Positions 5,603 through 25,863 of a stretch of DNA of 25,863 bases are shown piece by piece; position 1 is the first letter of the stretch; each line of letters starts with the position of its first letter. Below the pieces are notes generated by a model, which was given only the letters and a program-made list of their open reading frames with translations, made no database searches and was not told the DNA's origin. Both the position numbers and the translations under genes were made by a program. Origin of the DNA: a virus; the IMG/VR virus record IMGVR_UViG_3300000115_000057, positions 1 through 25,863 of that record, one strand, 5' to 3'.

Positions 5603-6643
5603 TTATTTTTCATAAGTTGGAAATAGAGCAAATATATCTTTTAACCATGAATCTAAATTCCTAATCATTCCTCCTAGTTTATCTTCATTATAAAATGAAA
5701 TAAACATTTCAGAATTAAATTCAGGTAAATCTTCATCTATTAAATTATCTATATGTTCTTTTCCTCTATCATCAATCATTGGAGTGCTTAAATCCATAAC
5801 TTTGTAATTAGTTTCAATCCTAGATTGTTCTTGAACAATGCGGGAATATACAACATGTTCCTTGAATTTCCTAGCAGATATGTCGAAAATATCATCTAAA
5901 GTTAAATCATGGGTTTTTAATTCAGGAAATTTTTTAAATATACCTTTTGCACCTAACCCTTTAATACCTTGAATATTATCTGAACTATCTCCCAATAATG
6001 TTTTATGTAAAATAAAATTAGAGGGTTTTAAACCAAATTTTTCTTCTACTGTTTTAGGAGTATAATATTCCTTCTCCATTGGTCTATAGACAATAATTTT
6101 ATCTGTTACTAACTGTAGGAAATCTTTATCACTAGATACTATAAAACAAGTTGAATTATGTTTTTCTACTAATTTTTCAGCTAACACGGCTATAATGTCA
6201 TCCGCTTCTACTTTATCGAGTATGGTGGTTTTAACAGGTAATAGCTTTAGATATTGTATTATACGTACAATTTGGTCGATTTTTGAGTCATGTTCTTCCT
6301 CAATGTTATCAAATGCTTCCCAATTAGTAATCCTAGATAAATTTCTTGTTCCCTTGTACTCGGAGAGCAGATTCTTACGATTTACTGTTGAACCTGCTCC
6401 GTCGAATACTACATAAACAGAAGTTGGATTTGTTTGTCTAATCATAGCACCCAAAGAGCGAAAGAATCCTCCTAACCCACCAATATGAACTCCATCAGGA
6501 TTAACCATATTCATCATAGCAAAATTTCTAAAAAATAAATTTAAACCATCTAAGATTAATACTCTGTCGTGTCTATTTTGGGTAGGGATCTCCTGATCTT
6601 CCTGGATATCATCCAGAAGATTAAATAACTCTTTGTGTTTCAT
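5603..6643 (-). CDS. rnh: 5'-3' exonuclease / RNase H, FEN-1 family (T4 Rnh-like)
   Basis: Structure-specific 5' nuclease expected to remove RNA primers from Okazaki fragments, like T4 RNase H. 346 aa. Metal-binding acidic residues follow the family order: Asp32 (ILDGLN), Asp81 (VVFDGAG), Glu146/Asp148/Asp149 (VEADDI), Asp172/Asp174 (SSDKDF) and Asp219/Asp222 (GDSSDN). The helix-hairpin-helix motif GIKGLGAKG at 226-234 follows directly. An Arg/Lys-rich arch region lies around 88-105. The N-terminal 25 residues are acidic and hydrophilic, before the first beta strand. It sits 8 nt after the uvsX stop and 11 nt before the helicase, consistent with coupled expression. No truncation seen. Confidence 0.93.
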   Translation of the reverse strand: MKHKELFNLLDDIQEDQEIPTQNRHDRVLILDGLNLFFRNFAMMNMVNPDGVHIGGLGGFFRSLGAMIRQTNPTSVYVVFDGAGSTVNRKNLLSEYKGTRNLSRITNWEAFDNIEEEHDSKIDQIVRIIQYLKLLPVKTTILDKVEADDIIAVLAEKLVEKHNSTCFIVSSDKDFLQLVTDKIIVYRPMEKEYYTPKTVEEKFGLKPSNFILHKTLLGDSSDNIQGIKGLGAKGIFKKFPELKTHDLTLDDIFDISARKFKEHVVYSRIVQEQSRIETNYKVMDLSTPMIDDRGKEHIDNLIDEDLPEFNSEMFISFYNEDKLGGMIRNLDSWLKDIFALFPTYEK

Positions 6644-6651
6644 GTTTTTGT

Positions 6652-7725
6652 TTATAAGTCTTGTACGTCGTAAAGTACAGGGGTTACATCTTCTTGGTCT
6701 TCTACAATTTTGAATGTTCCACCACCTAAGATTTTAGTCCACTCATCTGAATGTTCTTTCTTATAGTTGTTTTTATCCTTATCTGTATCTTGGATAAAAC
6801 CATGGTTTGTCATAACAATTTTACCTCTTGATTGCATACCATTAACATGGTTTTTATCAATTTGTAAGTTTGTTCTTTTACCCCATTCAACTTGTTTACC
6901 ACCTTTAATTGCTTTAATCTTAGAAGTACCAGCATTGGATACATTTCCAAATGTAACTACAAATGTTGCATCATACCACATAGCCATTCCACCTTTATTC
7001 ATCATCTTTGGTTGACCCATAGGTGATTCTGCTTTAGCAGTCCATACTTTATTAATACAGCAAAGTGTATTAGTAAAGGGTGATGATTCTTTACGTGACA
7101 TTACAATACTTTGGTTAACTGTATTACCAAATTGTGTTGACATTGCTCCAGCATTCCATTCATTATTATTTTTTAGTTTTTCAACTGACATTGCACAAGG
7201 AATAGAACCAATTGAATCCCAAAAGAATGCTAAATCATAAGGCAAATTACCTTTTTTCTGTTCATTCTGTAAATCCATTATAAATGCTGCTACGTCTTCA
7301 ATAGTATGTAAAGTTTCTCTATCAACATAAATAAAATTACCTTCATAATCTACAACATTATCTTCATCATCTTTAATTAGTTTAACTTCTAATCCCATTT
7401 GAGCGGCATGTTCCCAATTCCATTTCATTTCAGTAATAATAAAAACAGGTAATACCCCCATTTTTTGTGCTGATACTGCTGCTTCAAGTAAAGCTGTTGT
7501 TTTACCTGTATCAGAATGTCCTCTAAGTAATGAAATATGTCCCATTGGAACTCCTGGTACTCCAGATATTTCTTGGAATGCTGGAGATAATGGTATCCAT
7601 TTTTGTTCTTTAAATTTAACGTTTTTATCTAAACCTTTAGATGATTTAAATTTATTTAAGTCAAATTTGCTCTTAATCTCAGCAGACACTGCTGCTGAGA
7701 GAGACTTTGATGCCTTTCTTGCCAT
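6652..7725 (-). CDS. uvsX: UvsX-like RecA-family recombinase
   Basis: Strand-exchange ATPase that drives recombination-dependent replication and repair in T4-type phages. 357 aa, slightly shorter than T4 UvsX (about 390). Walker A is G69-T76 (GHSDTGKT), preceded by a beta strand (ISLLR). Walker B is the hydrophobic strand ending in Asp170 (LAFFWDSIGSIP), with the S-x-G-S-x-P turn typical of UvsX. The conserved Glu100 after FIIT fits the catalytic glutamate position. The C-terminus is acidic. The ATG is 2 nt after the gp32-like stop, so the two partners, which load together on single-stranded DNA in T4, are translationally coupled. Confidence 0.94.
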   Translation of the reverse strand: MARKASKSLSAAVSAEIKSKFDLNKFKSSKGLDKNVKFKEQKWIPLSPAFQEISGVPGVPMGHISLLRGHSDTGKTTALLEAAVSAQKMGVLPVFIITEMKWNWEHAAQMGLEVKLIKDDEDNVVDYEGNFIYVDRETLHTIEDVAAFIMDLQNEQKKGNLPYDLAFFWDSIGSIPCAMSVEKLKNNNEWNAGAMSTQFGNTVNQSIVMSRKESSPFTNTLCCINKVWTAKAESPMGQPKMMNKGGMAMWYDATFVVTFGNVSNAGTSKIKAIKGGKQVEWGKRTNLQIDKNHVNGMQSRGKIVMTNHGFIQDTDKDKNNYKKEHSDEWTKILGGGTFKIVEDQEDVTPVLYDVQDL

Positions 7726-23973: not shown

Positions 23974-24228
23974 CTATTCTGGGGTAATAAATTCCCCTGT
24001 TTCTAAATCTATATTTCCTTCTCCATACTTTTTTTGGAGTTCTTTAGCTGTTTTATTTGATTTTTCTTGTAAATCTGCTAAACCATCCAAAATTGAAGCT
24101 CTTTGACCTTCTAAAAATGCTTTTTGGATATCAACTTGTCCTAAGTCAAAAGTAATTGCATTTTGGTTTTTTTGGTATTCTCTAAGAATTGTTAATTCTT
24201 CTTCTGATAGTTTGATTTTTTTACTCAT
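23974..24228 (-). CDS. Small coiled-coil protein upstream of the sheath
   Basis: 84 aa, Glu/Lys/Gln-rich and almost entirely helical (LSEEELTILREYQKNQNAITF, then EKSNKTAKELQKKYGEGN). It ends in DLETGEFITPE, a short strand-like tail. There is no membrane segment. It lies between the glycosyltransferase-like gene and the sheath gene with its own promoter-like element only 8 nt from the ATG, so its transcript may be almost leaderless. I recognise no function; a small structural or assembly protein of the tail is the contextual guess. Confidence 0.75.
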   Translation of the reverse strand: MSKKIKLSEEELTILREYQKNQNAITFDLGQVDIQKAFLEGQRASILDGLADLQEKSNKTAKELQKKYGEGNIDLETGEFITPE

Positions 24229-24257: not shown

Positions 24258-25217
24258 TTATTCAGTGTATTCTATTGTTTGGTAAATTGATTCTTTATAT
24301 TTATTTGTTAAGTCAGTATACTCACCATCTAATATAAAACCTAAGGTTTCAATTTTAGGTAAGTTTATTAAATTATTTTTACCCTTTATTATATCTGTAT
24401 ATTCATTATTAACTCTTAATTTTAAATTAGAAATTTGAATATCAAAAAGTAAAATTTTAGATACCCCATCATTTTGAATAGTATTATGAGTATGATTGTT
24501 TTGGAAAAAAAGCTTAAATTTATTTGTGCCACTATAATTAAACATAGATTCAGGGTTATCAAATACAATTAAATCAACTATAGGTTCTGGATGGATAGTG
24601 TATAAAAAATTAGTTATTAAATGGCCCCAGTAATCTTCAGCTGATTTAAACCTGCTAGGTTCTTTCCATGGGAGGGTGTCACACATATAATGTTCTTTAT
24701 TAATTAGAGGTAATAAAGCTTTTAAATTTTTCCTATTTAAAATATTAAGCATAAAGCTTGGGTATCTAGGGTTTGATTCACTACAAGGCTGTACCTTAGA
24801 TGTTAAAAAAGAAGTAGGATTATTTAAAGCAGTAATTATTAAATCTGTAATTTGGATATCATAATTTATAAAACTAAAATGACTATAGTCTAAAGATAAA
24901 CCTAAATTACCACCTAATAAAATTTGATTAAAAGCAGTCCAACCATAATCTGGGTATATAGTTTGTAAACGATAGTTAGTATCATCTAATATTTTTTTCC
25001 AAAAAACCATCCCCCTATATGGCCAATTAATTATAGGGTTACTTTTATCATAAATAAAATACTCTATCATTTGTTGAATATGAGAAGGTATAGGTGTGTG
25101 TGATAATAATAAAATATCAAAATTTTGAGTCTTTAATTTTTTAATATTATCTGTTAATATTTCTATTTTTTCCTTTGAATCACAATGGGAAAGAATTATT
25201 ATTAAATTATTTTTCAT
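24258..25217 (-). CDS. Glycosyltransferase-like protein
   Basis: 319 aa, cytoplasmic. The N-terminus (NLIIILSHCDSKEKIEILTDNIKKLKTQ, then DILLLSHTPIPSHIQQMIEYFIYDKSNP) has the strand-helix-strand order of a Rossmann-like GT-A nucleotide-sugar-binding domain. FSFINYDIQI near 116-126 sits where the D-x-D region lies, but the motif is NYDIQ, not a clean DxD. The remainder is alpha/beta, with PSRFKSAEDYWG later. The start codon overlaps the end of the deacetylase gene, so the two are coupled. Likely role: transfer of a sugar to a phage or host target; substrate unknown. Family assignment is moderate. Confidence 0.6.
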   Translation of the reverse strand: MKNNLIIILSHCDSKEKIEILTDNIKKLKTQNFDILLLSHTPIPSHIQQMIEYFIYDKSNPIINWPYRGMVFWKKILDDTNYRLQTIYPDYGWTAFNQILLGGNLGLSLDYSHFSFINYDIQITDLIITALNNPTSFLTSKVQPCSESNPRYPSFMLNILNRKNLKALLPLINKEHYMCDTLPWKEPSRFKSAEDYWGHLITNFLYTIHPEPIVDLIVFDNPESMFNYSGTNKFKLFFQNNHTHNTIQNDGVSKILLFDIQISNLKLRVNNEYTDIIKGKNNLINLPKIETLGFILDGEYTDLTNKYKESIYQTIEYTE

Positions 25218-25863
25218 AACATTTTATATAGTTATCTTTATTTTTACTAACATCATATTTTTCGATACACTCATATTCTATATAGTTAGTAAAAGGATCA
25301 TTGCTTTTAAACCAATCCCCATTATTATTTAATAATTGATTTATAATGGGTGTTTCCGACGTATATAATGTAAGTAAATTATTTTTGGTATCCAAAGTAT
25401 TTTGGTCTAGTTTTTGTTGGGATTTACCAAATACGTAAAAATTATTAGTAATATTAAGTATAATATCAAATACTAGTTTATGTTGTGGGTGACCATATTC
25501 ACCTATAGGATTATGAGTAACTATTTTTTCCCATTCTCTACTTTTTAAAATATCTTTTAAATTAAATTGTTGGGTAGGGTATAGTGTATCTTCATAATCA
25601 AACATTTCCCAAGAACCTACATTTAATTTTTTCATTACTGTTTCAAATTCTTTACTTCGTATTTTATTTAATTTATTAGTAAGACAAACAACTTTATATT
25701 CTGGGCCATATTTTATTAATTCTGCTCCTCCAAATATTAATTCATCATCAGGGTGAGCAACAACCATTAATTTAGTAGTTTGGTAATCATTAAAGGCTAA
25801 TTTTAAAGTTTCAGCATTTTTAGGCTTTACTGAAGGATCGGGACCATGAATAAAGTAAGGTTG
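25207..25863 (-). CDS. PIG-L/LmbE-type N-acetyl-sugar deacetylase, 5' end outside window
   Basis: The frame is open from the right window edge; the ATG at 25767 lies in the middle of the first beta strand (TTKLMVVAHPDDE), so the true start is upstream and at least 32 more codons belong here. Motifs: AHPDDE (zinc-binding His and Asp plus catalytic Asp, numbered H5, D7, D8 from that ATG), a Rossmann-like KVVCLTNK strand, and the second zinc motif GHPQH (H93, H96). PIG-L/LmbE enzymes remove acetyl groups from GlcNAc-type sugars. With the overlapping glycosyltransferase-like gene it suggests sugar modification. The upstream part (PYFIHGPDPSVKPKNAETL) may belong to a further domain. Confidence 0.85.
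   Translation of the reverse strand, partial: QPYFIHGPDPSVKPKNAETLKLAFNDYQTTKLMVVAHPDDELIFGGAELIKYGPEYKVVCLTNKLNKIRSKEFETVMKKLNVGSWEMFDYEDTLYPTQQFNLKDILKSREWEKIVTHNPIGEYGHPQHKLVFDIILNITNNFYVFGKSQQKLDQNTLDTKNNLLTLYTSETPIINQLLNNNGDWFKSNDPFTNYIEYECIEKYDVSKNKDNYIKCYEK

Follow-up and report, generated by a model that had tools for sequence, protein, structure and literature searches.

TibC hyperglycosylates the repeats of an adhesin and, at the mapped sites, modifies Ser rather than Thr. Asp-110, Lys-230, Arg-286, and Trp-305 are needed for its function, and its dodecamer needs each of the iron-binding Cys residues (PMC4358343, in the portions available to us). In mycobacteriophages, glycans are reportedly found at the C-termini of capsid and tail tube subunits (Freeman et al. 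2023, as summarized in PMC12619734 and cited also in PMC12691614). Marine phages, too, carry glycosyltransferases in their tail region, and these have so far been read as tools for altering lipopolysaccharide (LPS) (excerpts of PMC7029224). The accessible portions of PMC12619734 and PMC7029224 discuss phage glycosyltransferases as modifiers of LPS, DNA, or virions and do not contain the term "heptosyl." A search of the open-access literature, which misses most subscription papers, turned up neither TibC-like enzymes in phages nor a link between such enzymes and Gly-Ser-Ser (GSS) or Gly-Thr-Ser (GTS) repeats. Here we describe a 25,863-nucleotide window, bases 1-25863 of the 41155-base IMG/VR virus record IMGVR_UViG_3300000115_000057; coordinates above 25863 are those of the record, whose structural genes resemble those of T4-like phages. 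It is likely that this run of structural genes contains a phage-encoded protein O-glycosylation module that acts on virion fibers. The enzymes of the module probably decorate long, serine-rich repeat fibers of the virus particle. The evidence comprises gene order, protein families, predicted folds, conserved catalytic residues, gene fusions, and genetic linkage in bacteria.

The C-terminal half of a 762-amino-acid (aa) protein scored 204.4 bits on TIGR04414, a protein O-heptosyltransferase model with a cut-off of 200, versus 29.4 bits on the LPS heptosyltransferase I model. The only Protein Data Bank (PDB) sequences that matched the 762-aa protein at an E value of ≤0.01 were those of TibC (4rap/4rb4; best, 1.3e-33). 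Higher TIGR04414 scores were obtained for Microcystis phage Mel-JY01 (317 bits) and the 735-kb phage LR756501 (305 bits), and 9 of the 11 records tested were above the cut-off, with G002 (178) and G016 (194.6) below it. All 28 aligned TibC-like domains matched TIGR04414 at E values of ≤1e-5. The catalytic D110 and the sugar-binding T226, K230, and W305 were invariant in these 28 domains, and the four iron-finger Cys were kept in 25 of them, including that of L003, a locus near-identical to the window's record. At least 595 viral stretches with TibC-like sequence were confirmed among the 600 matches listed. Of the 30 viral rows in a 64-row tree, 26 formed one supported clade together with L131; the remaining four were Mel-JY01, LR756501, and two short second copies. 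L131 (JAAEPJ010000383.1) contains the module, sheath, and tube of the same phage type inside a bacterial metagenome-assembled genome and is phage sequence binned with a bacterium. Two loci have a second TibC-like gene directly after the first (L115:11071-11958 and L120:11077-11955); these encode 292 to 295 aa without the N-terminal part and adjoin genes for the Gly-X-Y repeat proteins described below.

The original prediction, made from the window alone, was that an LmbE/PIG-L deacetylase and a glycosyltransferase-like protein are encoded by overlapping genes directly upstream of the tail genes and serve glycan modification of virion proteins or of the host surface rather than DNA modification. 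Both overlapping minus-strand reading frames were found as described, the one encoding the deacetylase running off the window (Table 1), and just one 84-aa gene lies between them and the sheath and tube genes. The deacetylase assignment was borne out by a match to Pfam family PF02585 (E value, 7.1e-12; 46.4 bits versus a cut-off of 28.2). AHPDDE and HPxH, which we take to be the metal-site motifs of PIG-L deacetylases, were invariant in 23 of 23 aligned relatives, and the domain model matched the teicoplanin deacetylase Orf2 (VIA Z, 16.0). Extra N-terminal sequence beyond the window had been guessed to be another sugar-active domain; extension into the record gave a 480-aa protein in which the model of residues 3 to 291 is a GT-A domain that matches glycogenin (VIA Z, 12.6; root mean square deviation [rmsd], 4.4; 210 aligned residues). 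This model is weak in the middle, with a predicted local distance difference test score (pLDDT) of <50 at residues 128 to 155 and 199 to 209. The sequence D-G-D-A-F, with the DxD motif D103-G-D105, was invariant in the same 23 relatives. Positions 25864 and 25866 of the record, inside the 480-aa gene just beyond the window, are N, and a near-identical contig reads through.

The glycosyltransferase-like label of the 319-aa protein also holds because its model (mean pLDDT, 90.8) is a GT-A fold, even though scans of Pfam, PHROG, and NCBIfam placed the GT-A regions of the 480-aa and 319-aa proteins in no named family above cut-off. Residues 1 to 219 best matched mannosylglycerate synthase (VIA Z, 14.2; rmsd, 3.3; 169 aligned residues). 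Nucleotidyltransferases of similar fold were also among the structural matches, and a check for a DxD motif found only an invariant Y-D. Foldseek matches included the PBCV-1 transferase 2p6w, titled for glycosylation of that virus's capsid, a likeness that is a fold resemblance only. Some loci encode one or two further 319-aa-like proteins. In L014, L015, and L028, the family is present in two or three diverged copies that stand close together with differing neighbors, an array that seems to gain and lose transferases.

The position of the module is constant. Searches with the 480-aa, 319-aa, and TibC-like sequences gave 119 loci, from which 25 on the same contig or near-identical were dropped by hand; 92 of the remaining 94 have a TibC-like domain (TibC positive). 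In all 85 TibC-positive loci that hold a sheath, less than 8 kb separates the end of the TibC-like gene from the sheath gene downstream on the same strand. Near-copies remain among these loci (L121/L130 and L031/L034), and therefore the 85 are not independent. The minimal form consists of a neck gene, a gene of approximately 360 aa, the TibC-like gene, the 84-aa gene, and the sheath gene. The domains of the module are tied together because they are fused in relatives. A search with the 480-aa protein gave 35 distinct viral loci, of which 30 match its PIG-L part; the remaining five (L031 to L035) have a 319-aa-like domain, in place of PIG-L, fused to the GT-A domain. TibC-like, GT-A, and PIG-L domains share a single open reading frame (ORF) in 17 of the 35 loci. 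Of those ORFs, 14 encode 1241 to 1251 aa and include a GT4 domain as well, and 3 are cut by contig ends. GT4, 319-aa-like, and TibC-like domains are joined in one ORF of Mel-JY01, and in LR756501 the TibC-like protein has as neighbors a GT4 plus 319-aa-like protein (73.6 bits) and a protein that carries a 19-triplet run. The phage record collection yielded PIG-L matches in four records (34% identity) and nothing resembling the GT-A part of the 480-aa protein.

Several relatives have additional genes in the cluster. Pfam searches of selected examples gave a PF02719 dehydratase, a C-methyltransferase, and a GT25 protein, as well as a match to RmlD that stayed below cut-off. In several relatives (for example, L007:6697-7728 and L026:6277-7722), the GT4 gene is immediately preceded by APS-kinase-like, nucleotidyltransferase, and small membrane-like genes; the kinase and nucleotidyltransferase of L007 were recognized with Pfam and the remaining such genes by eye.

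PIG-L proteins and glycosyltransferases occur in phage DNA hypermodification, for example in TET-linked phage pathways. The module might accordingly place sugars on modified bases, with PIG-L tailoring them. This is very improbable given the relationship to TibC and the location among structural genes. The sequence upstream of the two genes in the window encodes a GT4 domain and a protein-O-glycosyltransferase-like domain, rather than the hypermodification or nucleotide metabolism enzymes that would have spoken for DNA as the target. Thymidylate synthase/hydroxymethylase (PF00303) was found in none of nine related records, a set outside the window's own record, and Tet_JBP in none of 11 records including the window's own, in a search whose positive control was silent; the records in both searches may be fragments. 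In favor of DNA modification, the 119-kb relative G001 carries genes for QueC, a 6-pyruvoyl-tetrahydropterin synthase (QueD-like), a radical SAM protein, and GTP cyclohydrolase I (L047:7337-11425) approximately 32 kb from the module. These likely represent a 7-deazaguanine pathway located away from the glycosylation module. A 268-aa gene near them (6023-6829) had no Pfam match. The preference for glycan over DNA modification was thus upheld by the TibC-related enzyme upstream and by the GT-A models of both previously unnamed domains.

Candidate acceptors are encoded upstream of the enzymes. The 395-aa and 1097-aa proteins contain long runs of Gly-Ser/Thr-Ser, a form of Gly-X-Y (GXY) triplet. 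In the 1097-aa protein there are 252 GXY triplets, with Ser at Y in 234 and Thr, Ser, or Asn at X in 106, 102, and 23, respectively. The repeat proteins matched NCBIfam collagen-like adhesin models below their cut-offs (SclB, 306.1 versus 325; SclA, 238.2 versus 400; Lcl, 237.6 versus 500). A triple-helical collagen was rejected because the repeat has no Pro and the scores fell below the cut-offs; the repeat may be more like an O-glycosylated stalk. The library searched presumably contains the strand-loop-strand repeat model of autotransporter partners. Only collagen-like models, and not the strand-loop-strand model, matched among eight proteins of the record, which probably covers only a minor part of the phage genome. 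All nine long TibC-positive contigs have a GXY run of at least 15 triplets. G002, G010, and G012 to G016 joined the set once a GXY gene close to TibC was known from their loci, G001 had none nearby, and G011 and LR756501 were left out of the set. The within-contig p values for the distance between GXY and TibC-like genes were 0.015, 0.021, 0.023, 0.034, 0.14, 0.18, 0.19, 0.19, and 0.92, the last for G001, where the two lie 106 kb apart on a linear contig whose ends may adjoin; the combined p of 4.6e-4 is descriptive only.

The association of enzyme and repeat is clearest in bacteria. Among 37 genome contigs, 14 had a run of at least 10 triplets, and in 9 the distance from the run to TibC was below 1.2 kb (8 to 1116 bp). 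Eight of these nine nearby repeat proteins begin like secreted proteins or lipoproteins, as judged by eye. Three of the other five run-bearing contigs (L131, L132, and L136) have phage genes. A pattern search of whole genomes found the repeat in 10 of 12 TibC-positive genomes, a set in which 8 were chosen for a repeat seen near TibC and 4 for none seen, 2 of the latter proving positive. In eight of the positive genomes (2.3 to 6.1 Mb), the repeat lies within approximately 2.1 kb of the sole TibC gene over the cut-off, with one extra match elsewhere in G024; in G018 and G019, perfect repeats lie elsewhere in the genome and imperfect repeats adjoin TibC.

Within one bacterial family (101 genomes), five consecutive Gly-[ST]-[ST] triplets were found in 7 of 9 TibC-positive genomes (E ≤ 1e-40) versus 0 of 92 TibC-negative genomes (p, 2e-9), with the repeat within 750 bp of TibC in 4 of the 7. 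These counts set aside, after reading, G275, G293, G295, and G305, whose matches encode Cys, Trp, Arg, or stop codons rather than Ser/Thr; unfiltered, the comparison was 7 of 9 versus 4 of 92 (p, 6e-7). The sample was drawn by a tool, and its center, G018, as well as G019, G024, and G028, was known to be TibC positive beforehand; with only the five new TibC-positive genomes the result was 4 of 5 versus 0 of 92 (p, 1.4e-6). G290, which has the best TIGR04414 score in the family (654 bits), lacks this repeat, as might be expected if its target were a canonical autotransporter.

From these data we infer a sequence of activities, including the acceptor, the donor sugars, and the order of steps. 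The TibC-related half of the 762-aa protein would add the first sugar to serines of virion proteins in the host cytoplasm, an initiation step suggested by homology and linkage. The most likely acceptors would be the (Gly-Ser/Thr-Ser)n proteins, whose genes stand a few places upstream, modified at the Ser that precedes Gly and presumably carried in the virion as fibers. In later steps, which are more conjectural, the glycan might be extended or branched by the GT4 half of the 762-aa protein and by the GT-A domains of the 480-aa and 319-aa proteins, and the PIG-L domain might remove the N-acetyl group from an N-acetylhexosamine of the glycan, leaving a free amine. The fusions and gene overlaps would keep the steps together.

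Several findings weigh against this interpretation, on the side of the enzyme as well as that of the acceptor. The 762-aa protein passed the TIGR04414 cut-off by only 4 bits, and the E value on the LPS heptosyltransferase I model is ≤1e-5 for 23 of the 28 TibC-like domains. The position of R286, needed for sugar binding in TibC, is Arg in just 1 of the 28 domains (Thr in 18, Leu in 8, Ile in 1), and that of P300 is Gly in all 28. Therefore, the donor sugar may not be ADP-heptose, and the domain is described as a TibC relative and not classed as a BAHT heptosyltransferase. It has an intact catalytic base but an altered sugar site and may work like TibC. In L021, L022, and L036, the four iron-finger Cys are lost together (N, I, D, A), with D110, T226, K230, and W305 kept. 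A search for ADP-heptose synthesis genes in 10 records found no GmhA, and HldE-like matches only below cut-off in 2 of the 10. A suspected heptose synthesis gene of G001 was dropped, as its best scores were on nicotinamide-nucleotide adenylyltransferase models.

The matches to the LPS model would also fit modification of the host surface, in which the transferases alter LPS or O-antigen during infection and thereby exclude competing phages. Glycosyltransferases in the host recognition region of other T4-like marine phages have been interpreted in this way in work on pelagimyophages (PMC7029224, in the part available to us). The clusters of relatives contain sugar genes of a polysaccharide type, and G001 has a second cluster of glycosyltransferase, UDP-sugar dehydrogenase, and epimerase genes away from the tail genes (L048:4727-13790; three genes tested with Pfam). 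However, the window's own enzyme scores far higher on the protein model than on the LPS one, the single slot before the sheath is constant in 85 of 85 loci, and LPS modification leaves the linkage to Ser/Thr repeat proteins unexplained. We consider host-surface modification unlikely. A virion protein is favored over the host surface because TibC/AAH glycosylates protein serines and its homologues adjoin Ser/Thr-rich repeat proteins.

On the acceptor side, GXY runs of at least 15 triplets were present in only 22 of the 51 TibC-positive loci with at least 6 kb upstream of the sheath, which was not significantly different from 4 of 18 TibC-negative tail loci (p, 0.16). Taken by itself, the set selected by tail tube had 2 TibC-positive loci among 42, neither with GXY, and 4 of its 40 TibC-negative loci had GXY. 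Two of the nine TibC-positive genomes of the bacterial family lack the repeat. At the class level, 3 of 184 TibC-negative genomes had the repeat (11 before filtering; 8 of 12 pattern-positive genomes were set aside on the same grounds as above), and TibC itself occurred in 1 of 185. Because the viral comparison is not significant, the case for linkage rests mainly on bacteria. Neither the 319-aa family (p, 0.25) nor PIG-L (p, 0.58) was linked with GXY inside TibC-positive loci. GXY did show a link with the 291-aa gene (9 of 10 versus 13 of 41 loci with at least 6 kb upstream; p, 0.0012, uncorrected for kinship).

The 29 loci without a run could mean that the acceptor is another constant neighbor, the tail sheath or the 84-aa protein, and that the GSS repeats are incidental. 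The sheath is the most constant neighbor of the TibC-like gene, and the minimal modules L075 to L077, L084, and L085 show no GXY run. Such an acceptor nevertheless seems improbable, since TibC genes are linked to GTS/GSS proteins also in bacteria, where no phage tail accompanies them, a GXY protein is present in every long contig examined, and in L111, L115, L119, L120, and L127, where no sheath was seen in the locus, the nearest GXY gene is 1 to 4012 bp away. Modification of the repeat proteins thus remains the preferred reading.

In the direction of transcription on the minus strand, the order is neck-like genes, the 395-aa gene, two small genes, and the genes for 1097, 236, 291, 762, 480, 319, and 84 aa, followed by sheath and tube (Table 1). 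The 762-aa and 480-aa genes overlap by 8 nucleotides; the stop codon of the 480-aa gene lies over the ATG of the 319-aa gene. In a tblastn comparison with annotated tubes, the tail tube was 59.4% identical to that of Mel-JY01 and 56.5% identical to that of Flavobacterium phage immuto. The 291-aa protein is conserved in the window's record, L008, L009, L010, L014, L021, L022, and L036. Its assignment by eye to GT9 was unsupported by family scans and by comparison with the TibC profile (probability, 0.7%).

Table 1. Features of the locus, listed in the direction of transcription (coordinates above 25863 refer to the record)
Feature	Coordinates	Strand	Basis
395-aa protein, long Gly-Ser/Thr-Ser triplet runs	34418-35605	minus	record ORF
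1097-aa protein, long Gly-Ser/Thr-Ser triplet runs	30593-33886	minus	record ORF
291-aa conserved protein, family not assigned	28933-29808	minus	record ORF
762-aa protein, GT4 plus TibC-like C-terminal half	26642-28930	minus	family profiles
480-aa GT-A plus PIG-L protein	25207-26649 (3' part in window, 25207-25863)	minus	ORF and relatives in 35 viral loci
End of GT-A (glycogenin/GT8-like) domain, residues 3-291; remainder past the window	25780-25863	minus	structure model
PIG-L (LmbE) deacetylase domain, residues 291-470	25240-25779	minus	PF02585, fold match, motifs
11-nucleotide overlap of 480-aa and 319-aa genes; possible translational coupling	25207-25217	minus	ORFs
319-aa glycosyltransferase-like protein	24258-25217	minus	ORF, model, homologues
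GT-A domain of 319-aa protein, residues 1-219, then beta-rich C-terminal part	~24561-25217	minus	model
Conserved 84-aa gene between glycosylation genes and sheath	23974-24228	minus	context
Tail sheath, 783 aa	21563-23914	minus	position before tube; same-slot gene annotated as sheath in Mel-JY01 and immuto
Tail tube, 162 aa	21032-21520	minus	tblastn to annotated tail tubes

If many of the tail-region glycosyltransferases of marine phages act on the virion's own fibers, this would change their annotation and provide a directly testable source of virion glycans. Such glycans may affect adsorption, stability, or recognition. The (GSS/GTS)n sequence would be an acceptor repeat for a TibC-like subgroup outside autotransporters, in bacteria and phages alike, and low-complexity Ser-Gly proteins that match collagen-like models would be explained. 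More broadly, we lean slightly toward the view that TibC-family enzymes and (Gly-Ser/Thr-Ser)n sequences form a pair of enzyme and acceptor tag, which would serve small secreted proteins in scattered bacteria and heavily glycosylated virion fibers in hundreds of environmental phages, with the phage versions built into GT4-TibC-GTA-PIGL proteins in the tail gene run and the near-constant Ser before Gly as the modified residue.

The closest described enzymes are TibC/AAH (TIGR04414; 4rap and 4rb4), with which the phage domain is homologous over approximately 350 aa and has the catalytic Asp, T226, K230, and W305 in common. Unlike TibC/AAH, the phage domain shares its protein with GT4, joined in relatives by GT-A and PIG-L as well, and is encoded in a run of phage structural genes; the repeat encoded nearby is Gly-Ser/Thr-Ser, and R286 and P300 are not conserved. 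The PIG-L domain has the same fold and metal-site motifs as PIG-L/LmbE enzymes such as the teicoplanin deacetylase Orf2, chitobiose deacetylase, and MshB. In contrast to those enzymes it is fused to a GT-A domain, and the motif that is HPDH in PIG-L/LmbE deacetylases reads HPQH or HPKH. The repeat has the Gly-X-Y register of the collagen-like adhesins SclA/SclB and Lcl, but its X and Y residues are mostly Ser/Thr, without Pro. In Mel-JY01, the protein annotated only as "methyltransferase FkbM" (WWT39291.1) combines GT4-type matches, a 319-aa-like domain (55.9 bits), and a TibC-like domain in one ORF that, unlike the genes described here, is located away from the phage's own sheath gene. At a distance of 4.3 kb from the TibC match there is an open frame with 149 GXY triplets. 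This plus-strand frame of 1016 aa (L051:2-3052) overlaps a minus-strand annotated coding sequence, 739-2298, a possible misannotation. Mycobacteriophage virion proteins are already known to carry glycans, at the C-termini of capsid and tail tube subunits, whereas the genes described here imply a TibC-type enzyme and a long repeat protein.

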